From Epsilonproteobacteria bacterium tcs-49 (GTDB lineage Bacteria > Campylobacterota > Campylobacteria > Campylobacterales > Sulfurovaceae): a stretch of DNA of 64,000 nucleotides. The number at the start of each line of letters is the position of its first letter. The stretch's first letter is position 1. The position numbers and the translations under genes were made by a program. The DNA lies in assembly GCA_002049495.1 (NCBI GenBank), contig LLYS01000005.1:62001-126000 (forward strand). The letters run 5' to 3'. The notes beneath the pieces are model-generated. The model was given only the letters and a program-made list of their open reading frames with translations, ran no database searches and was not told where the DNA came from. Shown here in pieces: positions 1,709-17,543 of this stretch.

Positions 1709-3241
1709 TTGTCCGTGCGTCACTTTTCTCCCCTACGGATCTACCGTATTTTTCGGTTTTTAACCACCGTCTTTTTACTGATCAAAAACAAACGCAGGAT
1801 CCTGCTGCTCCCCCCGCTTTCGCCTAAAAAGCTGGAAAAGACGATCAATGAGCTGGGGGTAAGCTTTATCAAACTCTCCCAGGTTCTTGCGACCCGCAGC
1901 GACTTTTTCCCCGAGCCATATCTGCACCGGCTCCAGAAGGTACACGACGCCGTCCCCGCCATGGGGAAAAAAGAGTTCCAAACCGCTTTTGACAACGCTT
2001 TTGCGAGCGATCCCTTTGAAGATTTTGACTTCACTCCCATCGCCAGCGCCTCCATCGGACAGGTACATAAAGCAAGCTACAAAGGAGAAACGGTAGCGGT
2101 CAAACTCAAACGCCTGGGGATTAAAAAGCGTATTAAAGCCGATATGTTTCTTCTTCATCTTTTTCTGCGCCTCTTTCAACCCCTCTTTTCGGAAAAGACG
2201 AAAAACTCCATCGAAACGGTAATCACCGAATACTCCAAGATGCTGTTTGAGGAGGTCAGCTTTTATCAAGAGGTGCGCAACCTCAAAAAGTTCTCTTACG
2301 TTTACGCCCACTGCGGCGTCACCTTTCCCACACCCGTAGAGGAGTTGTGCAACGACGACGTTATCGTGATGGATTACCTGGAGGGGTTCAGCTTTGACGA
2401 CAAAGCGGCGATAATGCGCAGCGGGATCGATATCGACGCCGTGATAGAAAAACTGGTCCATTTTTACGTGGAGCAGATGCTGATCAACGGCTATTTCCAC
2501 GCCGATCCCCACCCGGGTAACCTCCGGATCGGCGCAGGGGGAGAGCTGATCCTGCTTGATTTCGGGATGGTAAAAAATATCGATAACGCCACGCGCCTGG
2601 CACTGGTGGAGATGGTCAAAGCCGCCAACGAAAAGGATTTTGACCTCTATATCTCCGCGTGCAAACGCCTTGGCGTAGTTTCATACGATGCGAACCAGAG
2701 CGAAATGATCGCTTTTACCGAAAAGATGTTTGAAATCTTCGAAGATGATACCCTCGATGCCAAAAGTATGCAAACCCTGGCGACGGAGGTCCTTGAAACC
2801 ACCCATTCGATGCCCTTTAAGCTGCCCCAGGACGCCATCTACGTTTTACGCGTCAGCGCGATTATCGAAGGTTTGGGGACCACCTATATCGAAAATTTCA
2901 ACGGGGTAAAAGATATCTTGCCCATCTTAAAAAGAAATTTGACCAAAGCGCTGGGAGGGGAGCGCTTTACACAGCTGTTCAAAGAGGAGATCAGCGATCT
3001 GCCCCTGACGATCAAGCATATAAAAAATATCATCAACAAAGCCAGTGAGGGCAGCCTGGAGGTAACGCTCGAAACCAATCAGCTTGAAAGTATCCAGCAG
3101 CGTTCGGGCAATGCGCAAAAGCGCTACGCGCTTTGTTTTGCGCTGATGTTTCTGGGGGTGTACCTGCACCTGCAGGAGCTGCCTCTACTCTCGGCAACCG
3201 CTTTCGGCGCGGGATTTTTAGGGGTTGTTTTTAAACGTTAG
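1709..3241 (+). CDS. ABC1/UbiB-family atypical kinase
   Basis: A 510-residue protein of the ABC1 (UbiB/ADCK) family, membrane-associated ATPases linked to quinone or lipid metabolism. Visible motifs are the KxGQ-type helix, here FIKLSQVLATR around 53-63, the Ala/Ser-rich ATP loop ASASIGQVH at 112-120, the invariant Lys in AVKLKR near 132, the catalytic HADPHPGN at 264-271 and DFG at 284-286. Two hydrophobic segments end the protein. The KxGQ glycine is a serine here. The start appears to be TTG at 1709; GTG at 1715 is an in-frame alternative. A menaquinone-related role is inference. Confidence 0.85.
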   Translation: MSVRHFSPLRIYRIFRFLTTVFLLIKNKRRILLLPPLSPKKLEKTINELGVSFIKLSQVLATRSDFFPEPYLHRLQKVHDAVPAMGKKEFQTAFDNAFASDPFEDFDFTPIASASIGQVHKASYKGETVAVKLKRLGIKKRIKADMFLLHLFLRLFQPLFSEKTKNSIETVITEYSKMLFEEVSFYQEVRNLKKFSYVYAHCGVTFPTPVEELCNDDVIVMDYLEGFSFDDKAAIMRSGIDIDAVIEKLVHFYVEQMLINGYFHADPHPGNLRIGAGGELILLDFGMVKNIDNATRLALVEMVKAANEKDFDLYISACKRLGVVSYDANQSEMIAFTEKMFEIFEDDTLDAKSMQTLATEVLETTHSMPFKLPQDAIYVLRVSAIIEGLGTTYIENFNGVKDILPILKRNLTKALGGERFTQLFKEEISDLPLTIKHIKNIINKASEGSLEVTLETNQLESIQQRSGNAQKRYALCFALMFLGVYLHLQELPLLSATAFGAGFLGVVFKR

Positions 3242-5615: not shown

Positions 5616-6134
5616 GTGACTTTATACATCGAGATCGCGATCGCCTTATTGCTGCTTGTTTTGATCGTTATTGAGTATAAGCGGTTTACGGCCCAGAAGC
5701 AGGTTGCTGCAACCGACAGGGACGCTTCGGGTTCCGCCGCGTATAAGCGCCAGAAAACTACCCACAACAATATGGGCTGCACCTTTCTGGAGTCGCACAT
5801 CGATGAGGAGGTCAGCAAACTGCAGCGCTACAGCTCCTACGGCGTCACGCTGATGAACTTCAGTATGAATGCCGATCCCGCGGATATTTTACACGAACTG
5901 CGGGATTTTATCCGCAAAAGCGACCGCATCTTCGTCTGCGAAGATAAGGTTTATATCTTTTTTCCCTTTATCCAGGATGATCAAAATACGCGTATCAAAA
6001 TTGAAAACCGCATCGTCGGTCATCTGGAAAAACAGTTGAAGAAAAAGTTGCAATTTACCAATTTGAAGTTCCAGCGCTTCGAATACGACCCCCAGTTTAA
6101 ACGGGAGTTAATTGCCGTCCCGACGCAGAAGTAG
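5616..6134 (+). CDS. Membrane-anchored protein with degenerate GGDEF-like region
   Basis: The likely start is GTG at 5616, nine bases after an AGGAGG at 5601-5606; an upstream in-frame ATG lies inside gltX. The 172 residues begin with one membrane helix (about 5-22). After a linker comes a soluble domain whose spacing recalls a GGDEF fold: FLESHIDEEVSKLQRY, then a beta strand, RKSDRIFVCEDKVYIFFPF, and a helix IENRIVGHLEKQL. The GGDEF signature itself is absent, so no cyclase activity is expected. It may bind a nucleotide or a partner protein. The 3' end overlaps murG, which converges on it. Confidence 0.7.
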   Translation: MTLYIEIAIALLLLVLIVIEYKRFTAQKQVAATDRDASGSAAYKRQKTTHNNMGCTFLESHIDEEVSKLQRYSSYGVTLMNFSMNADPADILHELRDFIRKSDRIFVCEDKVYIFFPFIQDDQNTRIKIENRIVGHLEKQLKKKLQFTNLKFQRFEYDPQFKRELIAVPTQK

Positions 6135-7097
6135 CGACGCTATCTTTTCCGCCCCTTCCGGGGCGATGCAGGAGTCAAGCTCCGCGCTTGCCCGCTCAAT
6201 ATCCTCTTTTGTAAGCGCCGCAAAGAAATCCACGTCCAGCGCATCCTGGCGCATGATCCACGCCGCCCCCTTTTGCCGCAAAAACAAAGCGTTGTAGTAC
6301 TGGTGATCCCCCGCGGCATAGGGAAAGGGGATAAACAAAGCCGGCAGCGCGTTGGCGGCTAATTCCCACAGCGTCGACGCCCCCGCCCGCGCTACTGCGA
6401 AATCGGCTCGCTGCATCTTCTGCTCCAACGCGTCACTGAAAGCAAACAGTTCCACATCCTCTTTTCCCAGTTTGGCATATTCGGTTTTAAGCCACTCGTA
6501 ATCACGCTGCCCGCACTGATGGATAATAGTAAAATCGTAGCGTTTGGCCACTTCCAAAGCGAAGCTGTTGATCCCGCGGGCCCCCTGTGAACCGCCCAGA
6601 AAGATCACCGTTTGCAACTCGCTGCGTCGCCGCGCGGATTGGAAAAAGCGCTTTTTAACCGGATAGGGATGGGCTTTTGGGCCGAATGATTCGATAAACT
6701 CCGCGGCAAAGGGGCGAAGCAGCCGATTCAGCCTGCCCTGACGGGCATTTTGTTCATGGATGACCAGCGGCTTGCCCAAAACCACCGCCGCCAAAGCAGC
6801 CGGTGCGGCGGAAAAACCGCCCACGCTGAAAACACAGGAAGCTTTTCGCACCAATCCCAGTGAACGGAAAAAAGCCTTGATCAATTTCCACAGGGCTTTT
6901 CCCTTGTCCAAGCCCCGTTTATCGACGATGCCCGTGGTATCGAGGAAATACTTTTCACTGAAGCGGGGATCGCTTTCAAACCACTGCCGGTCCTGCCCCT
7001 TTTGCGACCCCACGTACACTCCGCCATCGATATGTTCGGCCACGGCGTCGATGATCGCCAGGTGACCGCCGGTACCCCCGCCGGTAAAAAGGATCAC
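6108..7097 (-). CDS. murG: MurG, lipid II-forming N-acetylglucosaminyltransferase
   Basis: This GT28 enzyme adds GlcNAc to lipid I at the inner face of the membrane, the last intracellular step of peptidoglycan precursor synthesis. It has 329 residues, slightly short for the family. The N-terminal glycine-rich loop GGGTGGHLA is at about 6-14, FSVGGFSAAPAALAA and HEQNARQG follow, and the UDP-GlcNAc-binding domain contains FLGGSQGARGIN and ARAGASTLWEL. The ATG overlaps the ftsW stop by four bases, so the lipid II maker and the SEDS polymerase are translationally coupled. Confidence 0.95.
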   Translation of the reverse strand: MILFTGGGTGGHLAIIDAVAEHIDGGVYVGSQKGQDRQWFESDPRFSEKYFLDTTGIVDKRGLDKGKALWKLIKAFFRSLGLVRKASCVFSVGGFSAAPAALAAVVLGKPLVIHEQNARQGRLNRLLRPFAAEFIESFGPKAHPYPVKKRFFQSARRRSELQTVIFLGGSQGARGINSFALEVAKRYDFTIIHQCGQRDYEWLKTEYAKLGKEDVELFAFSDALEQKMQRADFAVARAGASTLWELAANALPALFIPFPYAAGDHQYYNALFLRQKGAAWIMRQDALDVDFFAALTKEDIERASAELDSCIAPEGAEKIASLLLRRDGN

Positions 7098-8257
7098 AGC
7101 ACCACCTTTTTACTGATCATCAATACCATCCCGATAGCGATGGAGGAGGCGATAATATGGCTCCCCCCGTAGCTGAGAAACGGTACGGCGATCCCCTTGA
7201 TCGGCGCGATCCCGCTGATACCGTAAGCGTTGATCAAAAAAGAAAGCCCGATCACCATCGCCGTCCCGACCCCGAAAAGGTAGTAGCGGCTGTCCAGACT
7301 CCGCCCGGCGATTTTAAAGATACGAAAGATCAGTACCACAAAAAGCATGGTCAAAACAGATACCCCGAAAAAGCCCAGCTCCTCGGTAATCCCCGCCAGT
7401 ACGAAGTCGGTGTGCACCTCACTGAGATATCCCAGTTTGAACTGCCCGTTGCCAAGCCCGGTCCCGAACAGATCACCGTTGTTGATGGAGTTGAGCGAGT
7501 GGCCGATCTGGTAGGGTTCTTCGCCGGATTTGACCCGCAGATACTTTTCCAGCCCCGCAGGCAGGATTTGAAATACGAAATCCTGGATCATGGACCACCA
7601 GGAGCGGATACGCTCGATACGGTGATCGCTGATAAGGATAAAGAAGGTAAACGCCGCCAGTGCCACCGCGAAGATGGAGCTAAACAGCCGCAGACTTTTG
7701 CCCGCGAAAAGCAGCATCGTCGCCAGGGTGACGCTTAGTACCACCACTTGACCGAAATCGTTTTGAAAGATGGCGATCAATACCACGACGACGGCAAAGA
7801 CCCCCATATAGGGCAGCACTTCCAGAAGCTCCTCTTTATAGGGTTTTTTCCCGTCGTGGGGAGCGAATTTTCTCGAAAAACTCCACGCCAAAAACCATAC
7901 GAAGCCGATTTTGAAAAATTCGACGGGGGAGATGGAAACCACCCCGAGATTGATCCAGCGCTTCGCCCCGCCCACTTCCCGAACGATCGATTCGGGCATA
8001 AACTGCATCGCTATCATCGCCGCCAGAAAGAAAAGAAACATAAACGCCCCCACCCGGTTAAACCACAGATCGGGATCCAGGCGCGCAAGGGTGAAAATGA
8101 TGATAATCCCTAAAAATACGGCGATACCCTGCTTGATGAAGAAGCTGAACTCATCAAGTCCAAACAGCATCGTCACATAGGTCGATAGGGAGTAGGTAAA
8201 GACAAGGCTTACCGTTAAAAGTGCGATGGTCAGTTGCAGAAGATGTCTATCGATCAT
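7094..8257 (-). CDS. ftsW: FtsW, SEDS-family peptidoglycan polymerase of the divisome
   Basis: A 387-residue integral membrane protein with about ten helices, of the SEDS family that polymerises glycan strands together with a class B PBP. Family motifs include GGAKRWINLGVVSISPVEF near 95-115 and the C-terminal GIAPIKGIAVPFLSYGGSHI. Pairing with murG points to the division protein FtsW; the elongation paralogue rodA is at 60805-61923. The cognate transpeptidase may be the PBP at 9654. It is transcribed away from the flagellar operon across a 130-base divergent gap. Confidence 0.92.
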   Translation of the reverse strand: MIDRHLLQLTIALLTVSLVFTYSLSTYVTMLFGLDEFSFFIKQGIAVFLGIIIIFTLARLDPDLWFNRVGAFMFLFFLAAMIAMQFMPESIVREVGGAKRWINLGVVSISPVEFFKIGFVWFLAWSFSRKFAPHDGKKPYKEELLEVLPYMGVFAVVVVLIAIFQNDFGQVVVLSVTLATMLLFAGKSLRLFSSIFAVALAAFTFFILISDHRIERIRSWWSMIQDFVFQILPAGLEKYLRVKSGEEPYQIGHSLNSINNGDLFGTGLGNGQFKLGYLSEVHTDFVLAGITEELGFFGVSVLTMLFVVLIFRIFKIAGRSLDSRYYLFGVGTAMVIGLSFLINAYGISGIAPIKGIAVPFLSYGGSHIIASSIAIGMVLMISKKVVL

Positions 8258-8337
8258 TACACGGCTACTTTTTGTTTTATTTTATCCAAAAAGGGGTTCG
8301 AAAAAGATTATAAATTTCTATTTCTGAACCGTTCAAA

Positions 8338-8354
8338 TTGGTATGCTTTTTGCT
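8338..8354 (+). promoter_or_regulatory. Sigma-54 (RpoN) promoter upstream of flgB
   Basis: The sequence TTGGTATGCTTTTTGCT matches the -24/-12 consensus TTGGCACG-N4-TTGCT. GG is at 8340-8341 and GC at 8352-8353, with the required 10 bases between them. It lies 33 bases before the flgB ATG, which has AAGGAG just upstream. Rod genes of Campylobacter are known RpoN/FlgR targets, so the site fits the gene. Two bases of the -24 box (T for C) differ from consensus. Seen directly; function inferred. Confidence 0.8.
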
Positions 8355-8387
8355 TTTTTATCGGTAAGTTCAAAATAAGGAGTCCCC

Positions 8388-8813
8388 ATGGAGATCAGTA
8401 CAGCAAGAACCCTCGCCTATGAAGCACTGGATCACAGGGCGATGCGACAGGATTTAATCGCAAGTAATATTTCCAATGTGGATACTCCCTTTTACAGACC
8501 CAAAGATATCGCTTTTGAGCAGATGCTCGCACAGAAAAAAGCGAAGCTGATGGACGGTGACAGCTCCGGGGAGCTCAAACTCGCCAGCACAAACGCAACG
8601 CACCTGCAACCCGATGAAGAGATCGACTCCTCCAAGCCCACGGTTTTTTACCGGGACGGCCACATGGCCAGAAATGACGGCAACAGCGTCGATCTGGATA
8701 CCGAGACCACCGAACTTTCCAAAAACGGGGTGATGTACAACGGTTTGCTCGCCGCGCTCAAAAAAGACAAGATGATCTTTATGAACGTTATCGAATCATC
8801 GGCAAAAATTTAA
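8388..8813 (+). CDS. flgB: Flagellar proximal rod protein FlgB
   Basis: FlgB is a proximal rod subunit exported through the flagellar type III system. The 141-residue protein has the N-terminal rod motif IASNISNVDTPFYRPKDIAF (about 23-42), shared by axial proteins, and an amphipathic C terminus ending VMYNGLLAALKKDKMIFMNVIES. It begins a flgB-flgC-fliE group under the sigma-54-type promoter. The length is normal for the family. Confidence 0.94.
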   Translation: MEISTARTLAYEALDHRAMRQDLIASNISNVDTPFYRPKDIAFEQMLAQKKAKLMDGDSSGELKLASTNATHLQPDEEIDSSKPTVFYRDGHMARNDGNSVDLDTETTELSKNGVMYNGLLAALKKDKMIFMNVIESSAKI

Positions 8814-8841
8814 TAAGTAGATAAAAAACAGAGGACAGATT

Positions 8842-9336
8842 ATGGCATTTTTAAGCAGTTTTGATATCAGCGGATACGGATTAACGGCACAGCGCCAGCG
8901 CATCAACGCGGTCAGTTCCAATATTGCCAACGCCAATACGACCAGAACCGACGAGGGAGGCCCCTACCGACGAAAAGAGGTTGTCTTTCAAGCTTTCAAC
9001 TTCGATAAAGTTTTAAATGATAAAATAAATGAAGATAGCAATATGCTCAAGTTCGAAGATCCCCTGGACGAAGGCGATCTGGGAAAAGAGCCAAATCCCG
9101 CACTCCACGGTGTGCGTGTGGATAAGATCGTACGTGACGACAGCGAACCGATCATGAAGTACGACCCCAGCCACCCAGATGCGAATGCGAAAGGCTATGT
9201 GGCGTTTCCAAATATTAACCCGGTGATCGAAATGGCCGATCTGATAGAAGCCACGCGAGCGTATCAAGCCAACGTATCCGCTTTCCAAAGCGCGAAAACC
9301 ATGGCAACGAGTGCGATAGAGATGATGAGGACTTAG
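8842..9336 (+). CDS. flgC: Flagellar proximal rod protein FlgC
   Basis: A 164-residue rod protein that stacks on FlgB. The axial-protein motif is VSSNIANANTTRTDEGGPYRRKEVVF (positions 24 onward), and the C terminus has NPVIEMADLIEATRAYQANVSAF, the conserved FlgC/FlgG-type end helix. An AGAGGACAG ribosome-binding site precedes the ATG. It lies 28 bases after flgB and 4 bases before fliE, clearly within one operon. Confidence 0.95.
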   Translation: MAFLSSFDISGYGLTAQRQRINAVSSNIANANTTRTDEGGPYRRKEVVFQAFNFDKVLNDKINEDSNMLKFEDPLDEGDLGKEPNPALHGVRVDKIVRDDSEPIMKYDPSHPDANAKGYVAFPNINPVIEMADLIEATRAYQANVSAFQSAKTMATSAIEMMRT

Positions 9337-9340
9337 ATAG

Positions 9341-9643
9341 ATGTCAAACATTAATGATATTAAACAATTAAACAATGTAAATACCTTAAATAAACCTGAC
9401 AGCAAAACCGATAAGTCCGGCGATCTTGATTTCGGGAAGATGCTTAAAGATACCATCAATGAATCAAATGCGATCCAGAAGGATTCCGAAGAGGCGCTTG
9501 CTGATATGGCTACCGGACAGATCAAAGATCTGCACCAGGCAGCCAAATCCATCGGAAAAGCTGAAGTCAACATGAAAATGATGCTTGAGGTAAGAAACAA
9601 AGCGATCACGGCATATAAAGAAATCCTGAAAACACAGATATAG
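9341..9643 (+). CDS. fliE: Flagellar hook-basal body junction protein FliE
   Basis: FliE links the MS ring to the proximal rod and gates rod-protein export. The 100-residue protein is mostly helical, and its C-terminal half (DLHQAAKSIGKAEVNMKMM followed by LEVRNKAITAYKEILKTQI) is the diagnostic FliE region. It is placed after flgC as in Campylobacter and Helicobacter. Only ten bases separate it from the PBP gene, so the flagellar transcript probably continues. Confidence 0.94.
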   Translation: MSNINDIKQLNNVNTLNKPDSKTDKSGDLDFGKMLKDTINESNAIQKDSEEALADMATGQIKDLHQAAKSIGKAEVNMKMMLEVRNKAITAYKEILKTQI

Positions 9644-9653
9644 CGGCTAGCCT

Positions 9654-11426
9654 ATGAAGCCTGAGGAACAGATCGCCCAGCAAAAGGTCAGAGTACTGAT
9701 CTTTTTCGCCCTTTTTGTATTTTTCACCGCCATCTTTCTTGCCAAAATGGGCTATGAGGCCCTGGGCGAGAGGGAACTTCCTCCCCAAAAAACCACCCTC
9801 CACAACAAATCGATGCGGGGCAAGATCATCAGCAAGGACGGCTTTACCCTCAGCGAATCCACCAAACTCTACAAAGCGATGATCTACGCCAAGGGGATCG
9901 AAGAGGGGAAGCGGGATCTGTTTATAAACCTGTTTAGTATCTACAGCGGTATGGACCCCAAGCGGGTACGCAAACGCCTGGGCAATTTCGACCGCACGGT
10001 GGTGCTGTCGTACAAGATCGATGCGACCAAGGCGAAATACCTCAAAGAGCTTTCCCGGAAACTGTACAAGCTGGGCGTTTACAAGCGCCTGCATAAAAGC
10101 GACGGCACTACCGTCACCTATAAACTCGAAATCCTCGAAAGCGGTGAATCCAGGGAGTTTTTCTACCTCGATACCCTCACTCCGCTTTTGGGGCACATGA
10201 CTAAAATCGACGATGACGGCTACACCAAACCGGCGGGTCTCAAGGGCGTAGAGCGCTCCTACGAGCGCGAACTCAGCAGCGGCGTCGACGGTAAATGGGA
10301 AGGCAAACGCGACGTTTTGGGCGATATCATCTTAGACAGCAACAGCATCCGCAAAGCCCGTCACGACGGATTTGACGTTTATCTCAATATCAACTTAAAG
10401 TTCCAAAAACGGGTTGAACAGATTCTTGATGAGTATCAAGAAAAGCTCCAAGCCCAGGAGATCATAGCGGTCGTCATGGACAGCATCAGCGGCAAGGTCC
10501 TCAGCTTCGCCTCTTCCAACCGCTATATTCCCGACAATATCAAGCAAAACCAGATCGGCTACCTCAATCCGACCGCGACGGAGTACCTTTACGAACCGGG
10601 GTCGGTGATCAAGCCCATCACCTTTACGATTTTGCTCGAACAGGACAAGGTCAATCCTTTGGAAATTATCAAAGTGGAAAACGGCCGCTACCGTCTCAAC
10701 GGCCACCTTATTACCGATGAGCACAAAAAGATGTGGCTCAGCGCGGAAAATATCCTGGTTTACTCTTCAAATATCGGTATCGCCAAGCTGGCCCAGCGCC
10801 TGGAGGGGTATGAGATGTATGAGGGGTTCAAGCGCTTTGGCTTGACGGAAAAAAGCGGCATCGACCTGCCCTATGAAAACGTGGGACGGATGAAATCCCT
10901 TTCCAAACTCAACCGTGCCATATATAAAGCCAACACCGGCTACGGCTACGGGCTGAGCGTAAATCTGATGCAGCTGCTGCGCGCCCATACGGTATTTAAC
11001 AACGGCGGCTATCTGCTCCAGCCCCAGGTGGTAAACTATATCCAAAAGGAGGATAAGCGCTATATCCAAAAGCCCCGGCGGCAGCAGATCCTCTCCTCCA
11101 CCGTCGCCGCGCAGATGAACGGGATTTTGCAGAAGGTGGTCAAAGAGGGCAGCGGCCAGCGCGCGCAGATCGAGGGGTTGAGCATCGGCGGGAAAACGGG
11201 AACGGCGCACATCTCCGTCAAGGGCCGCTACCGCAACTTGTACAACTCCACCTTCATAGGATTTGTCAATGATGAAAAGAATCGCTATAATATAGCCGTA
11301 CTGACCGTCAAACCGAAGAAAAAATATTATCACTTTGCATCGTTGACGTCGGTGCCGGTGTTCAAAGAGATCGCTTTGAAAATGATCGAACTGGACTTTT
11401 TGAAACCGCGGAAAAAGAAGGAGTAG
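9654..11426 (+). CDS. ftsI: Class B penicillin-binding protein, FtsI-type transpeptidase
   Basis: A 590-residue bitopic protein: short cytoplasmic N terminus, one membrane helix (about 14-32), a dimerisation domain and a transpeptidase domain that crosslinks peptidoglycan. The three active-site motifs are intact: SxxK at 317-320 (EPGSVIKP), SSN at 371-373 and KTG at 514-516. The order flgB-flgC-fliE-pbp matches Campylobacter jejuni, where the gene is called pbpB and treated as FtsI. Assignment to the divisome rather than elongation is inferred from that synteny. Confidence 0.88.
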   Translation: MKPEEQIAQQKVRVLIFFALFVFFTAIFLAKMGYEALGERELPPQKTTLHNKSMRGKIISKDGFTLSESTKLYKAMIYAKGIEEGKRDLFINLFSIYSGMDPKRVRKRLGNFDRTVVLSYKIDATKAKYLKELSRKLYKLGVYKRLHKSDGTTVTYKLEILESGESREFFYLDTLTPLLGHMTKIDDDGYTKPAGLKGVERSYERELSSGVDGKWEGKRDVLGDIILDSNSIRKARHDGFDVYLNINLKFQKRVEQILDEYQEKLQAQEIIAVVMDSISGKVLSFASSNRYIPDNIKQNQIGYLNPTATEYLYEPGSVIKPITFTILLEQDKVNPLEIIKVENGRYRLNGHLITDEHKKMWLSAENILVYSSNIGIAKLAQRLEGYEMYEGFKRFGLTEKSGIDLPYENVGRMKSLSKLNRAIYKANTGYGYGLSVNLMQLLRAHTVFNNGGYLLQPQVVNYIQKEDKRYIQKPRRQQILSSTVAAQMNGILQKVVKEGSGQRAQIEGLSIGGKTGTAHISVKGRYRNLYNSTFIGFVNDEKNRYNIAVLTVKPKKKYYHFASLTSVPVFKEIALKMIELDFLKPRKKKE

Positions 11427-11427
11427 C

Positions 11428-11727
11428 ATGGCTTTGGAACATAAAGAAAAGGTAGATACCAAACTGGCTTTTCCCAAAAAGTATGAAGTTTTGTTACACA
11501 ACGATGATTATACGACGATGGATTTCGTCATCGAGATACTAAAAGAGTTTTTCAATAAAAGCGAGCACGATGCATACAATATCATGCTCAAAATACACAA
11601 GCAGGGCTTAGCCGTCTGCGGCGTATACACCAAAGAGATCGCCGAGACCAAGGTTGAACAGGTCACCGCCGCGGCGAAACAAAACGGCTTCCCGCTGCTT
11701 GCGACCATGAGGAAGCAAGATGATTAG
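11428..11727 (+). CDS. clpS: ClpS, N-degron adaptor of ClpA
   Basis: A 99-residue adaptor that binds proteins with N-terminal Leu, Phe, Trp or Tyr and passes them to ClpAP. The core YEVLLHNDDYTTMDFVIEIL contains the conserved acidic pair and Met/Val pocket that grip the destabilising residue, and the preceding charged tail is the flexible segment that enters ClpA. The start lies one base after the PBP stop, and the stop lies inside clpA. Confidence 0.95.
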   Translation: MALEHKEKVDTKLAFPKKYEVLLHNDDYTTMDFVIEILKEFFNKSEHDAYNIMLKIHKQGLAVCGVYTKEIAETKVEQVTAAAKQNGFPLLATMRKQDD

Positions 11728-13837
11728 TAAAGAGTTAAACGAAGTTTTTCAAAGCGCCATAGAGTTTGCCAAAGAGTACAACCATGAGTATTTAACCCTG
11801 GAACACCTGTTTTTAGCCTGCCTGCGCCACCAGCAGGGGGTAGGCATCTTTGAGAGCCTGCAGGTGGATATCGAGAGTATGAAAAAGGAGTTGATGCACT
11901 ACGTCGTAGCGCACAACGAATCCCTCTCCGCACCCAAGGAGCCGGTGGAGACCATGGCACTTTCACGGGTACTGGAGCGGATGATGATCCATATCCAAAG
12001 CTCGGGCAAGGAAAACGCCACCGTGGGCGACTTTATCGTCGCGGCCACCAGCGAAGAGGAATCGATCAGCGCGTACCTGCTGAGCAAGTATGCCGTGGAT
12101 CGGTTAGATATTCTTGAAGTGATCGCCCACGACGAACCCGTGGTAGAGGTCAAGGAGCAAAAGCAGGAGAAAAAAAGTCCCCTGGAGCAGTTTTGTACCC
12201 ACCTGAACAAGATAAAACACAAGATCGACCCCATCATCGGCCGCGAAAGCGAGGTGGAGCGGGTGTATCAAATCCTGGAGCGCAAAAAGAAAAACAATCC
12301 CCTGCTCGTAGGCGAAGCGGGCGTGGGCAAAAGCGCCATCGTCGAAGGGGTGGTTTTGCAAGATGACAAATATGAAATCTACTCCCTCGATATCGCCGCT
12401 TTGATGGCGGGGACGAAGTACCGGGGCGAGTTTGAAAAGCGCTTGAAAGTGGTGATCGAAGAGCTCAAACAGATCCCAAACAGCGTTTTGTTTATCGACG
12501 AGATCCACACAATCGTGGGCAGCGGGGCGACCAACGGATCGAGCATGGATATGTCCAATCTGCTCAAACCCGCCCTGGCAAAATCGGAGATCAAGTGCAT
12601 CGGCGCGACGACCTATGAGGAGTACCGCAACTATATCCTCAAAGACAAAGCCCTCAGCCGCCGCTTCAGCAAGGTCGATATCAAAGAACCCGGCAGCGGC
12701 GATACCCTTAAGATCCTGACGGGGCTGAAACCGCTGTATGAGAAACACCACGGCGTCAAATACAGCCAAAACGCCCTCAAACAGGCGATCTACCTCTCAA
12801 AACGCTATATCCACGACCATTTTCTGCCCGATAAAGCGATCGATATCATCGATGAAGCGGGCAGCCTGTTCAAACGCAAAAACAAAACCCATATCAACAG
12901 TAAAGATATCGAAAAGGTGGTAGCGAAGATGCTCAATCTCACCGGCATCAAAAGCGACAAGGAGCATTTGAAAAATTTGGAAAACCACCTCAAAGCCCGC
13001 ATCATCAACCAGGATGACGCGATCAAAGTGCTGACCCGGGCGATCAAGCGTTCGCATCTGAAACTGGACCGGGAAAAACCCATGGGCAGCTTTATGTTTG
13101 TCGGCCCGACCGGTGTGGGGAAAACGGAGCTTTCCAAGCAGTTGGCCAAAGAGTTGGATATGCACTTCTTAAAATTTGACATGAGCGAGTATATGCACAG
13201 CCACACCGTCAGCCGCCTCGTGGGTTCCCCTCCGGGATACGTGGGTTATGAAGAGGGGGGACTGCTGACAGAACAGATCCGCAAACACCCCCACAGCGTC
13301 GTCGTCTTTGACGAGATCGAAAAGGCCGACAGCAGCCTGATCAACATCTTTTTACAGCTGCTTGACAGTGCGCAGCTAACCGACAACAGCGGTCATGTGG
13401 CTGACTTTAAAAACTGTATCGTGATCATGACCAGCAACCTGGGGGCAAACGACAGTGAAGCGATGGGTTTCGTGGGCGGAGAGAGCCGCTACGAATCCGC
13501 GCTCAAAGAGTACTTCAGCCCCGAATTTCTCAACCGCATCGAAACGCAGGTGGTGTTTAACCAGCTTGATGCCAAAGATATGGAAAAGATCACCAAATTG
13601 GAGCTGCACGAACTGGAACAAAAGCTTAAAAACGTCACCATCGACATCACGCCCGCCGCCCTGCGGGAGTTGGCGAAGATGGGGTACGACAAACGCTACG
13701 GCGCGAGAAACCTGCAGCGCACCGTCGATGAAAAGATCGTCACGGTGTTGACTGATGAGATTCTCTTTGGCAAGCTGCAAAAGGGCGGCACGGTCAAGAT
13801 CGGCTATAACAAAGGGTTAACCTTTCGCTATGTTTAA
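11720..13837 (+). CDS. clpA: ClpA, ATP-dependent unfoldase of ClpAP protease
   Basis: A 705-residue AAA+ unfoldase with a Clp N-domain, which binds ClpS, and two ATPase modules. Walker A motifs are GEAGVGKSA near 197-205 and GPTGVGKTE near 461-469; Walker B VLFIDEIH and VVVFDEIEKA follow. The MGF tripeptide in EAMGFVGGE near residue 585 takes the place of the IGF/IGL loop that docks ClpP. The linker between modules is short, without the ClpB middle coiled coil, which confirms ClpA. It overlaps clpS by eight bases and aat by eight bases. No clpP is in the window. Confidence 0.95.
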   Translation: MISKELNEVFQSAIEFAKEYNHEYLTLEHLFLACLRHQQGVGIFESLQVDIESMKKELMHYVVAHNESLSAPKEPVETMALSRVLERMMIHIQSSGKENATVGDFIVAATSEEESISAYLLSKYAVDRLDILEVIAHDEPVVEVKEQKQEKKSPLEQFCTHLNKIKHKIDPIIGRESEVERVYQILERKKKNNPLLVGEAGVGKSAIVEGVVLQDDKYEIYSLDIAALMAGTKYRGEFEKRLKVVIEELKQIPNSVLFIDEIHTIVGSGATNGSSMDMSNLLKPALAKSEIKCIGATTYEEYRNYILKDKALSRRFSKVDIKEPGSGDTLKILTGLKPLYEKHHGVKYSQNALKQAIYLSKRYIHDHFLPDKAIDIIDEAGSLFKRKNKTHINSKDIEKVVAKMLNLTGIKSDKEHLKNLENHLKARIINQDDAIKVLTRAIKRSHLKLDREKPMGSFMFVGPTGVGKTELSKQLAKELDMHFLKFDMSEYMHSHTVSRLVGSPPGYVGYEEGGLLTEQIRKHPHSVVVFDEIEKADSSLINIFLQLLDSAQLTDNSGHVADFKNCIVIMTSNLGANDSEAMGFVGGESRYESALKEYFSPEFLNRIETQVVFNQLDAKDMEKITKLELHELEQKLKNVTIDITPAALRELAKMGYDKRYGARNLQRTVDEKIVTVLTDEILFGKLQKGGTVKIGYNKGLTFRYV

Positions 13838-14549
13838 CGCTCCCCCCATTCCCCGATTGGGGTATGATCATATCTTCCCCGACCCCAAAGAGGCGATGGA
13901 GGAGGGGCTGCTGGCTTACGGCGGCGATCTGAACCCCGACCGGGTGTTGACCGCCTACCGCAAAGGGATCTTCCCCTGGTTCAACCCCGGCGATCCCATC
14001 CTCTGGTGGTCGCCCAACCCCCGGGCACTGCTCTTTCCAAAGCAGTTTAAATGTTCCAGATCCCTGCGCAGGACCCTGCGCAACAAACCCCACGACATCT
14101 ACTTCGACCGCAACTTTGAAGCGGTCATTCGCCACTGTTCCACCGTCCCCAGAGAGGATCAGGATGGCAGCTGGATCACCAAAGAGATGATCAACACCTA
14201 CTTGCTGCTGCATCAAAGGGGATTTGCCCACAGCGTGGAGATCTATATGGATAATCAACTCGTAGGCGGTCTTTACGGAGTCAGCATCGGCAGCGCCTTT
14301 TTCGGCGAATCGATGTTTACCCTGCGGCGCGACGCTTCGAAGATGGCGTTTTACTACCTCTGCGAATTTGCCAAGATCCACGGCTTTGATTATATCGATT
14401 GCCAAATGCCCACGCCCCATCTGGAAAGCTTGGGCGCGGTTGCCGTAGAGCGGGACGATTTTCTCGACCTGCTTGAAATCTCCAACTTTAAAAGATCGGT
14501 TTTGGGCGATTGGCAGGAGGCGTGGGAGGGTCAAAAAGATGCGGATTGA
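13830..14549 (+). CDS. aat: Leucyl/phenylalanyl-tRNA-protein transferase
   Basis: Aat transfers Leu or Phe from aminoacyl-tRNA to proteins with N-terminal Lys or Arg, creating degrons for ClpS. The protein is 239 residues. Characteristic segments are [39 protein letters not shown] and [18 protein letters not shown] followed by the GNAT-like C-terminal fold with [14 protein letters not shown]. It overlaps both clpA and the next gene, so substrate marking, recognition and unfolding are encoded in one coupled set. No ATE/Bpt transferase is nearby. Confidence 0.95.
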
Positions 14550-14958
14550 ACAAACGACGCTTACCCTGCCCCCTTTTCCCCGGGGTTTTCACCTCATCAC
14601 CGATCATATCATCGAGGGGTTTCCCGCAATCGGGGATTTTGATACGGCGATACTGCATCTGTTTTTGCAGCATACCAGCGCATCGCTGAGCCTCAATGAA
14701 AACGCCGATCCTACGGTGCGCCGGGACCTGGAGGCGCTGTGCAGCGACCTCTTCGACGACAAAGCCTATTACCGCCACACCTACGAAGGTACGGATGATA
14801 TGCCCGCCCACGTCAAAAGCGCCATGCTGGGCGTTTCGCTGAACCTCCCCGTGACAAAGGGCCGATTAAATCTGGGCACCTGGCAGGGGATCTATCTCGG
14901 AGAGCACCGAGACAGGGGCGGTTCCAGAAGGATCGTCGCTACCCTTACCGGTCGCTAG
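14539..14958 (+). CDS. YjbQ/UPF0047 family protein (thiamin phosphate synthase-like)
   Basis: The start is ATG at 14539, inside the aat 3' end; the frame is open farther upstream only as an aat shadow. The 139-residue protein belongs to the YjbQ family: [20 protein letters not shown] and the C-terminal [20 protein letters not shown] are the signature segments with conserved His and Asn. Family members have weak thiamin-phosphate-synthase activity in vitro, but the physiological role is unsettled. It ends the flgB-to-yjbQ run. Its last 14 bases overlap the end of the GGDEF remnant on the other strand. Confidence 0.88.
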
Positions 14959-15225
14959 CTTGTACGACAATTCGATTTCTCCCCCCGGCTTTGGCTTCAT
15001 ATAGCGCGTCATCGGCCCCACCGGCCTATGACGTCGGTTTTTCGCACATGGCTTTGAAAGATACCGGCAAACCGGGTGAGTACTTTGTCGCCGATTTGGT
15101 GTCCGTAGCCGTCGTTGACGGATTTGAAGCGGTCGATATCGAGCAAACACAAACTAAACGTGTGCGGGTACCTTTGGTTTCTGCCTACTTCGCCGGAAGG
15201 GTAGTACAGTACCGTTTAAGCGGTT
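14945..15225 (-). pseudogene. Broken GGDEF (diguanylate cyclase) domain remnant
   Basis: No intact gene lies here, but the minus strand translates in pieces to a recognisable GGDEF domain. From about 15190 down to 15016 it reads EVGRNQRYPHTFSLCLLDID, then RFKSVNDGYGH..., ending VIGRWG. The frame then shifts by one and resumes at 15014 with DDALYEAKAGGRNRIVVQ and a stop at 14945-14947. About 55 residues including GGEEF itself are missing, so an internal deletion not divisible by three is the simplest explanation. A single-base loss near 15191 breaks the preceding RYCTTLPA segment from EVGR. Nothing recognisable was found at 15226-15350. Confidence 0.75.
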
Positions 15226-15350
15226 TTGCCGTAGCGTAGCCCTTGACCACACCGGCGCTCTTTTGTATTGATCATCTGTGGATAATATCGAGTTCACCCA
15301 TCGGTAAATTACTTCCCACAACAAAACAGAGCTTTACCGCAATCGTTATA

Positions 15351-17543
15351 TCACACAAAACAGCCTGAGCCAAGATCGCGCAGGGATCTCTCCACCTCCC
15401 CTGCCGCCGAAGGCTTGTGGTGCAGATACCCCTGTATCTGCTCGCACCCGTTTTGCAGTAAAAACGCTTCCTGCTCCCTGGTCTCGACCCCTTCCGCGAT
15501 CACGGTGAGTTGAAAACTTTTTGCCATGGCGATGATCGCTTTGACCATCTCCTCATCGTTTTGATCCCCGGGGATATCCCGGACAAAGGATTGGTCGATT
15601 TTGAGCTTATCGATAGGCAGCCGCTTTAGATACGCCAGGGAGGAGTATCCGGTACCGAAATCATCCATAGCGATCTCGATTCCGAAATCCGCAAGGGCTT
15701 TGAGCTTTTCGATACTGGAATCGGGATTTTTCATAATCTGGGTTTCGGTCACTTCCAAAGCCAGGGATTCGGGCCCCATCTGCGCCTGCCGCAAAGCGTT
15801 TTGTACCTTCTTTATAAAGCCCTCGTCCTCCAGCCACAGCGGAGAAAGGTTCAGCGAAAGCCTGCCCGGTTCATATCCCGCCTCCTGCCACGCTTTCCAG
15901 CGCCGCAGACAGCGATGCATCATCCACTCATCCAACTGTAAGATAAACCCCGTCTCCTCCGCAAAGGGGATAAACTTTCCGGGAGGGACCATCCCCTTTT
16001 GCGGATGTTTCCAGCGTATGAGCGCTTCCATCCCGACAAGCTTGCCGCTGTGGCGGTCAAACTGCATCTGAAAATGGGGTTCAAACTCTTCATTCTCCAA
16101 CGCACGGCGCATCTGTACGGCCAGTTCCATATGCGCAAACGCCTGCCGGGTCATGTCGGCTTTATAGAATTGATAACTGCTGCGGTTATCCTTTTTTGCC
16201 CTGTCCAACGCCGAATCGGCGTATTTGAGCAGCTCGTCGTGATAGGAGGAGTCCTCGGGAAAAAAGGAGATACCGATGCTGCAATTGATATAGATCCCGT
16301 GTCCCCCTAGCTGCATCGGCTTATCGATTTCCCGCTTGATCCGCTCAACGGTGTTGATCACCTCTTCAACCGATTCTATGTCGCTGAGAATAAGGGCGTA
16401 CTCGTCGCTGCTGATACGCGCAAGCATATCCCTGCTGTGGACAAACGCTATCAACTTTTGCGCCACGGTAACCAAAACCCGATCTCCCGTTTCATGTCCC
16501 AAAGAATCGTTTATCGTTTTAAAGCGGTCGATATCGAGCAGCACCACCGCCAGACGCTCTTTGTTCTGCCGTGCCCGCGCGACGTAGTGTTCCAGCGTAT
16601 GGACAAAAAAGCTGCGGTTGGAAAGGTGGGTGAGTTTATCATACTGCTCGATATAGCGCAAATTATTGCGCGTACGCATCAGTTCGCGGGTACGCGCTTC
16701 AACCATACGCCGGAAGACAAGCATCAAAACCAGCGAGATGACAAAACCGCCGATGACGAGTCCCAAGCTCCATAAAAGCCATGGGGGCAGATGGATATGG
16801 TTATCCAGCGTTTTTAAAAGCTTCTCTTTGGCGGTGTAATACACCGACTCCCTATCCGATTTCAAGCTGCGAAGCTCCTCATCGATCTGTTTTGCGAGCG
16901 CTTCGCGGCCAAAAGGGTAGGCAAATTTCAACTCCGAGGGTTTGATCAGGATATCGGTTTTTTTCAACCCGTAGTGCTTTTTTTGTCTCTCCCCGTGGAA
17001 TCTGTTGATCAGGATCGCTTCGGCCCGCCCGGTTTTTACGCCTTCCAACCCCTCTTTAAAACTCGCGACACGCACATAGCGGGGAGTGATACCAAAGGCT
17101 TCGGCCCGCTCTTTGATGGCAAAAGCCTGGATACTGTCTTTCAAAACGGCGATCCTTTTACCGTCAAGGTCAAGAATCGACTCGATCTTGCTGCCTTTGA
17201 CCTTATACACCGCGGACCAGCTGGAGAGTACCACCTCTTTTGAAAAGATAAAGCGCTCCCGCCTGGGAAGGGTTTCGGCTACGTCGGGCATAATATCAAG
17301 CTTGCCGCTTTCTAGCTGCCGCAAACATTCGCTCCAGCTGCATCTGCTGTATTCCAGCTTCCAATCCCGCTTCTTGGCGATTGCATCTAAAATCGTAACG
17401 AAAAAGCCGTCCGGTTTTTGCCGTGCGTCCATAAAGATTTTGGGCGGATTTTGGTAAAGCCCTACCCGATACACTTCCCGTGCATCCGCCTGCTGCGTCG
17501 ACAGCAGCAACACAACGGCGACAACGCCCCCGATCCTACGCAT
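15351..17543 (-). CDS. Periplasmic-sensor GGDEF/EAL protein, probable c-di-GMP phosphodiesterase
   Basis: The chosen ATG at 17543 follows AAAGGATAAGG and gives a signal peptide; 730 residues result. Residues about 24-230 form a solute-binding domain of the SBP_bac_3 type (EVYRVGLYQNPPKIF, SGKLDIMPDVAETLPR), then comes one membrane helix (about 253-278), a GGDEF domain and an EAL domain. The GGDEF site is SSDEY at 378-382, so cyclase activity is unlikely. The EAL domain keeps EALIRW at 506-511, EVTET, DDFGTGYSS, DKLKID and EGVET, as in active phosphodiesterases. It probably links a periplasmic small molecule, perhaps an amino acid, to c-di-GMP breakdown. Confidence 0.88.
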   Translation of the reverse strand: MRRIGGVVAVVLLLSTQQADAREVYRVGLYQNPPKIFMDARQKPDGFFVTILDAIAKKRDWKLEYSRCSWSECLRQLESGKLDIMPDVAETLPRRERFIFSKEVVLSSWSAVYKVKGSKIESILDLDGKRIAVLKDSIQAFAIKERAEAFGITPRYVRVASFKEGLEGVKTGRAEAILINRFHGERQKKHYGLKKTDILIKPSELKFAYPFGREALAKQIDEELRSLKSDRESVYYTAKEKLLKTLDNHIHLPPWLLWSLGLVIGGFVISLVLMLVFRRMVEARTRELMRTRNNLRYIEQYDKLTHLSNRSFFVHTLEHYVARARQNKERLAVVLLDIDRFKTINDSLGHETGDRVLVTVAQKLIAFVHSRDMLARISSDEYALILSDIESVEEVINTVERIKREIDKPMQLGGHGIYINCSIGISFFPEDSSYHDELLKYADSALDRAKKDNRSSYQFYKADMTRQAFAHMELAVQMRRALENEEFEPHFQMQFDRHSGKLVGMEALIRWKHPQKGMVPPGKFIPFAEETGFILQLDEWMMHRCLRRWKAWQEAGYEPGRLSLNLSPLWLEDEGFIKKVQNALRQAQMGPESLALEVTETQIMKNPDSSIEKLKALADFGIEIAMDDFGTGYSSLAYLKRLPIDKLKIDQSFVRDIPGDQNDEEMVKAIIAMAKSFQLTVIAEGVETREQEAFLLQNGCEQIQGYLHHKPSAAGEVERSLRDLGSGCFV

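Follow-up and report, generated by a model that had tools for sequence, protein, structure and literature searches.

A conserved flgB-flgC-fliE-transpeptidase unit headed by a sigma-54 element, and its probable later extension by clpS-clpA-aat-yjbQ in one Campylobacterota genome

Introduction

Those parts of the literature on Campylobacter jejuni that deal with class II flagellar promoters list flgB as class II, that is, as rpoN dependent (PMC7105676, PMC3656092). The flgBC-fliE cluster is described as ancestral and as conserved wherever a genome has the F3 chemosensory class; flagella were lost in Sulfurovum, Nitratifractor and a small Campylobacter clade, the set was replaced in Nitratiruptor and it was reshuffled in Arcobacter (PMC9321776). 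In C. jejuni, FlhG and the C ring already tie flagella to cell division, by another route (PMC6946799). Here we analyze a 64 000-nucleotide (nt) stretch of Epsilonproteobacteria bacterium tcs-49, a member of the Sulfurovaceae (contig LLYS01000005.1, positions 62,001 to 126,000 of the forward strand), referred to below as the window. In it a -24/-12 element of the kind used by RpoN (sigma-54) stands before eight genes on the same strand: flgB, flgC, fliE, a class B penicillin-binding protein (PBP) gene, clpS, clpA, aat and yjbQ. According to the initial annotation, RpoN would raise not only the rod genes but also the septal transpeptidase and ClpS-ClpA-Aat. Our analysis makes it somewhat more probable than not that the run consists of two parts, an ancient RpoN-controlled flgBC-fliE-PBP unit and a later clpS tail read mainly from a sigma-70 promoter of its own.

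Results and discussion

The flgB-flgC-fliE-PBP unit is old and widespread

We sampled PBP loci from 40 stretches of whole genomes and 80 of a named collection, to which two were added later (122 in total, 120 different). The order flgB-flgC-fliE-PBP occurs in 54 of them; between fliE and the PBP gene the median gap is 6 nt, and in 50 of these loci it does not exceed 60 nt. Three loci (L085, L087 and L097) have fliE and the PBP gene 1.6–2.8 kilobases (kb) apart, and the remaining 65 have no fliE within reach. Holders of the full order include named Sulfurospirillum, Helicobacter, Hydrogenimonas and Nautiliaceae records. The common neighbour in relatives is a divergent ftsW-murG pair, and both the gene order and this divergent pair are present in the window. 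On the evidence of gene order, flgB-flgC-fliE with an FtsI-type transpeptidase gene close behind is an old, phylum-wide arrangement. As an ancestral Campylobacterota unit the run would be expected to end with the PBP gene, but in the window four more genes follow it. In many relatives the next gene is convergent or unrelated, often a convergent one with a panC-like N-terminus (named by eye).

The PBP itself is predicted to be of the FtsI type and septal. It has the dimerisation and transpeptidase domains, is closer to FtsI than to PBP2, and 14 of its 15 best matches among solved structures are called FtsI or PBP3. Three transpeptidase genes are present in the genome: this one, one for another class B PBP, 588 residues long and PBP2-like by eye, and a third elsewhere.

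The sigma-54 element belongs to flgB

The exact pattern TTGGYAYRNNNNTTGCW has four matches in the 2.22-megabase genome, the element included, and its reversed control has two. With one mismatch allowed, 36 matches were found versus 51 for the control, which is no better than chance. The pattern alone is therefore weak evidence, and an attempt to define an RpoN regulon by its one-mismatch version was dropped. We therefore trained a 20-column matrix on relatives, using 54 sites that lie before their flgB genes (of 56 loci with flgB, 54 have at least 230 nt upstream) and holding out the site of the window. By this matrix the element at 8338-8354 scores 20.9 bits, the runner-up in the 64 kb scores 11.3 bits, and the next best score on the plus strand inside 8258-14958 is 0.3 bits. 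Its GG and GC lie 10 nt apart, as expected for -24/-12 promoters. The well-spaced element noticed by the initial annotation is thus real.

A site of this kind precedes flgB in all 54 relatives with enough sequence. In one locus (L039) the pick within 220 nt proved false, and a CGGAACGATTCTTGCT site was found further upstream, about 280 nt 5' of flgB. There a stretch of about 230 nt, by eye a repeat insert, parts the site from flgB (2904-3200 of this locus, family f4). Upstream of the PBP gene in the 63 loci without flg genes, the median score is -1.2 bits and the highest 11.1. Since it is present in 54 of 54 loci with flgB and absent from these 63, the element goes with flgB and not with the PBP gene. 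The same genome encodes rpoN, FlhA and two strong sigma-54 activator ATPases, so that RpoN and an AAA+ activator are both available.

Two other exact matches (L003 and L004; contig C2) precede other genes. One is a DUF3972 gene followed by a gene for an ARMT1-like phosphatase; the other encodes 185 residues with no Pfam match over the cut-off. To judge by the pattern, these genes are possible further RpoN targets.

On the other side of the element, a candidate ftsW promoter on the minus strand has its -35 box (8331-8336) directly next to the sigma-54 -24 box, and the spacer between ftsW and flgB measures 100-142 nt in 15 of 22 scored loci, the window among them. For both reasons bound RpoN polymerase could interfere with ftsW. 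Across relatives the distance between the ftsW and flgB promoters varies.

Sigma-54 transcription probably extends into the PBP gene

We propose that RpoN and its activator would start transcription at the element, a promoter supported by sequence and conservation, and transcribe flgB-flgC-fliE. Part of this transcription would probably read through into the FtsI-type gene, where the want of a strong ribosome-binding site may keep the yield low.

A promoter inside fliE, which the initial annotation had suggested looking for, does not stand out. The best -10 in the fliE end of the window scores 2.0 bits (P = 0.90 against synonymous shuffles), and among relatives 2 of 54 fliE ends reach P ≤ 0.05, as do 2 of 53 in the flgC control. 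Strong -10 sequences (11.4 bits) in the fliE end plus spacer do occur in L094, L105, L108 and L110, all of them loci with longer spacers. Since no -10 stands out in the fliE end, the PBP gene in most lineages is either read from upstream or served by a promoter invisible to the models used. Stronger -10 sequences upstream of PBP genes without flg neighbours (42 of 63 at 8 bits or more versus 7 of 41 behind fliE) were considered as well and turned out to reflect largely base composition; by shuffling, 11 of 63 and 6 of 41, respectively, reach P ≤ 0.05.

It could be argued that the genes are merely adjacent: the transcript would end or decay after fliE, the PBP gene would be fed by a promoter internal to flgC or fliE, and no regulatory link would exist. 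That 63 loci have kept the PBP gene but lack both flg genes and the sigma-54 site speaks for such independence. So does the -10-like TGATAAAAT, found in mid flgC in 13 of 55 relatives versus 6.8 expected from codon usage, and present in the window flgC at 9021. However, the site at 9021 does no better than synonymous shuffles (P = 0.49), fliE has no -10 excess, and the 10-nt gap between fliE and the PBP gene is too small for an ordinary terminator. We therefore regard mere adjacency as rather unlikely. The excess in flgC overlies a Val/Ile-Asp-Lys-Ile/Val motif, and there (9118-9129) the window has no TGATAAAAT; a Tyr-Asp-Pro motif, considered as the source of the excess, was the wrong one.

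The translation signals set the PBP gene apart from the rod genes. Taking the best Shine-Dalgarno pairing over all possible starts, with -5 kcal/mol or better counted as strong and rows aligning after residue 45 dropped, we found strong signals for flgB in 46 of 52 cases, flgC in 48 of 55, fliE in 46 of 55 and the PBP gene in none of 52 (two locus groups summed). Where fliE is absent, 12 of 61 PBP genes have one. The values for the window are given in Table 1. We read this as damping: with a promoter ahead of it that is strong and switched, the gene would be translated poorly.

Two points weigh against the read-through and damping proposed here. For the -10 and Shine-Dalgarno signals we used general consensus models rather than models trained on this organism. 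In addition, ftsW has a strong Shine-Dalgarno signal in 0 of 21 loci with the PBP gene close behind fliE and in 2 of 6 of the other group; because ftsW is weak too, a weak signal may be common to division genes, whose products are needed in small amounts, and not a response to the operon. Overall, the proposal of the initial annotation that RpoN raises the septal transpeptidase is plausible, given the old order, the tight gaps, the invariant sigma-54 site and the lack of a -10 that stands out in the fliE end, while a purely RpoN-dependent transpeptidase is unlikely. A limited literature search on Cj0525c, HP1556 and pbpB in connection with flagella brought up nothing on the fliE-PBP junction.

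The clpS tail is probably a later addition with a candidate promoter of its own

The attachment of clpS-clpA-aat-yjbQ is confined to the window: neither clpS nor clpA lies within 3 kb downstream of the PBP gene in any of 109 relatives (all those loci whose downstream sequence reaches 700 nt). All eight other family members examined keep clpS-clpA-aat in the same order away from the PBP gene, and in these eight loci no yjbQ was found beside it. Within 150 nt upstream of clpS their best -10 sequences score between 5.8 and 10.1 bits, and seven of the eight reach at least 7.2 bits. In six of the eight loci the closest frame upstream runs on the opposite strand. No sigma-54 site precedes clpS in 20 scored loci (best score 7.4 bits; two more were too short).

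The PBP gene of the window, the second place where the initial annotation had advised a promoter search, did yield a candidate with a good sequence (11263-11291). Only one other promoter in the 64 kb also matches at 11/12, and when the last 300 nt of the gene are shuffled by dinucleotides, none of 2000 shuffles reaches this score. Its TATAAT rests on Asn546. In an alignment with 118 other PBPs this residue is Thr in 106, Ser in 8, Ile in 2, Glu in 2 and Asn in none, and only the window has TATAAT at these codons. Further departures lie next to it, at positions 548 (Gly in 118 of 118 others) and 551.

From these sequence features we infer that clpS-clpA-aat-yjbQ moved behind the PBP gene in the lineage of the window, that the main promoter of the tail is most likely a sigma-70 promoter which arose in the 3' end of the PBP gene, and that the tail would receive at most some sigma-54 read-through. 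Several observations count against this part of the proposal. Synonymous shuffles of the same 300 nt give an 11/12 promoter in 104 of 3000 cases, and the site does not reach significance when only its -10 is modelled (P = 0.17). The PBP of the window is a long branch that departs at 22 of 167 conserved columns, so the Asn546 substitution may be drift. The 1-nt gap between the PBP gene and clpS, the overlaps downstream and the lack of a convincing plus-strand terminator would also fit one long transcript.

Such a single eight-gene sigma-54 transcript, by which RpoN would raise ClpS-ClpA-Aat and the septal transpeptidase along with the rod proteins, is what the initial annotation proposed. As it had stated, all eight genes lie on one strand; we confirmed the coordinates, the gaps (28, 4, 10 and 1 nt from flgB through clpS) and the overlaps (8, 8 and 11 nt between clpS, clpA, aat and yjbQ). 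The tight spacing favors one transcript, as does the absence of a second sigma-54 site from the run. Plus-strand terminator matches are no more numerous than in shuffles and none is convincing, and strong Shine-Dalgarno sequences on clpS, clpA and yjbQ would permit translation from a long RNA. Nevertheless, the tail is unique to the window, clpS lies elsewhere in relatives, mostly behind its own -10-like sequence and no sigma-54 site, and the run has a candidate promoter inside the PBP gene, where a strong start would by the initial annotation's own account tell against its model. RpoN control of ClpS-ClpA-Aat is therefore doubtful and less likely than a separate promoter, and we consider the eight-gene transcript unlikely.

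A strong ClpP match elsewhere in the genome completes the Leu/N-degron pathway (Aat, ClpS, ClpA and ClpP all encoded). In family f10, clpS-clpA-aat directly precedes flgB-flgC-fliE-PBP in four loci (L059, L075, L202 and L204) and the PBP gene alone in a fifth (L069), an order opposite to that of the window. It is very improbable that an action of ClpAP on flagellar or division proteins draws N-degron genes to the rod and septum cluster: f10 does provide a second attachment, but its sigma-54 site lies downstream of aat and so does not govern clpS-clpA-aat, and two cases are compatible with chance.

Layout of the locus

The features of the run and of its divergent neighbours are collected in Table 1. 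On the right the run is flanked by a convergent GGDEF/EAL gene ending at 15351. Between yjbQ and this gene (14959-15350, minus strand) lies what appears by eye to be a GGDEF-like C-terminal remnant, which may have been left by the rearrangement through which the clpS block arrived.

Table 1. Positions of genes and regulatory elements of the run and its left flank, in window coordinates
Feature	Position	Strand	Remarks
Sigma-54 -24/-12 element	8338..8354	+	reads TTGGTATGCTTTTTGCT; 33 nt 5' of flgB start
flgB, proximal rod protein	8388..8813	+	TIGR01396; strong Shine-Dalgarno, -8.8 kcal/mol
flgC, rod protein	8842..9336	+	TIGR01395; Shine-Dalgarno -5.8 kcal/mol
fliE, rod/MS-ring junction protein	9341..9643	+	PF02049, TIGR00205; Shine-Dalgarno -6.0 kcal/mol
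FtsI-type (predicted septal) class B PBP	9654..11426	+	PF00905, PF03717; FtsI/PBP3 structure matches; weak Shine-Dalgarno, -1.7 kcal/mol
Candidate sigma-70 promoter TTGTCA-17-TATAAT, inside PBP gene	11263..11291	+	11/12 consensus; 137 nt 5' of clpS
clpS, N-degron adaptor	11428..11727	+	PF02617; strong Shine-Dalgarno, -8.3 kcal/mol
clpA, ClpAP unfoldase	11720..13837	+	best NCBIfam match TIGR02639, 875 bits, below cut-off of 993
aat, leucyl/phenylalanyl-tRNA-protein transferase	13830..14549	+	PF03588, TIGR00667
yjbQ (UPF0047)	14539..14958	+	PF01894, TIGR00149
ftsW, divergent partner of the run	7094..8257	-	PF01098; best NCBIfam match is ftsW, below cut-off; ancestral neighbour with murG (synteny)
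murG, behind ftsW	6108..7097	-	best NCBIfam match TIGR01133, 216 bits, below cut-off of 250
Candidate ftsW promoter TTGAAC-18-TATAAT	8307..8336	-	10/12 consensus

Flagellar genes were probably retained

Among 175 genomes of the family, FliE is present only in that of the window, which is also the sole holder among the 90 good-quality genomes. A quick tree built from concatenated MurG, FtsW and PBP sequences (30 rows; support from the Shimodaira-Hasegawa-like approximate likelihood ratio test only) shows the window as a long branch and as sister to all 11 sampled family members (support 99). Since its flg genes (8388-9643) occupy the ancestral place beside ftsW, they were more likely retained than re-acquired. 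The relatives of the window would then have lost the block between ftsW and the PBP gene. In the named Sulfurovum, Nitratifractor and Arcobacter records ftsW is directly divergent from the PBP gene, in agreement with what is reported of these genera (PMC9321776). A sole FliE-bearing genome on the sister branch helps to place the loss of flagella in the family.

Possible link between RpoN and cell division

The PBP gene of C. jejuni presumably lies behind fliE. A C. jejuni rpoN mutant is reported to show wild-type growth in shaken culture, its antimicrobial resistance is little changed, and in 0.8% NaCl 79.3% of its cells are abnormally elongated, a defect that was complemented (PMC3196706). 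Reduced FtsI would fit the elongation. Because the mutant grows normally when shaken, FtsI cannot depend on RpoN alone, and the nearly unchanged resistance disfavors a large fall in FtsI.

A more far-reaching idea, which we put forward tentatively and consider improbable as it stands, is that FtsI of flagellated Campylobacterota is in effect class II (RpoN-activated), with the loss of its ribosome-binding site as a buffer and with ClpS-ClpA-Aat added to the circuit in the window. If true, the status of flagellar assembly could adjust septum building, and the elongation of the rpoN mutant under salt stress would be explained. Both the normal growth in shaken culture and the small effect on antimicrobial resistance argue against it (PMC3196706).

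Should sigma-54 read-through feed the septal transpeptidase, a flagellar checkpoint would extend to division in the phylum of Campylobacter and Helicobacter, and the published rpoN phenotype would become testable at one junction. Lineages without a native flagellum offer a natural control, as they have kept the PBP gene and the sigma-54 site is gone.

Comparison with known systems

The element of the window resembles the C. jejuni class II promoters, as far as the cited passages describe them, in having a -24/-12 element with standard spacing (PMC7105676, PMC3656092). It reads TGGTAT, whereas relatives mostly have TGGAAT or TGGAAC. In the flgB operons of Vibrio and Pseudomonas, flgB transcription needs sigma-54 and a two-component activator, much as we read the window, but the Vibrio operon, flgBCDE in the part of the account that covers it, has hook genes in place of fliE and the transpeptidase gene (PMC7064773). 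The clpS-clpA-aat clusters of the other family members share the gene order of the window and differ in standing apart from the PBP gene, mostly with a -10-like sequence of their own. With the ancestral flgBC-fliE cluster the window shares genes and gene order; the passages describing it make no mention of a PBP tail (PMC9321776), and to it the window adds clpS-clpA-aat-yjbQ.

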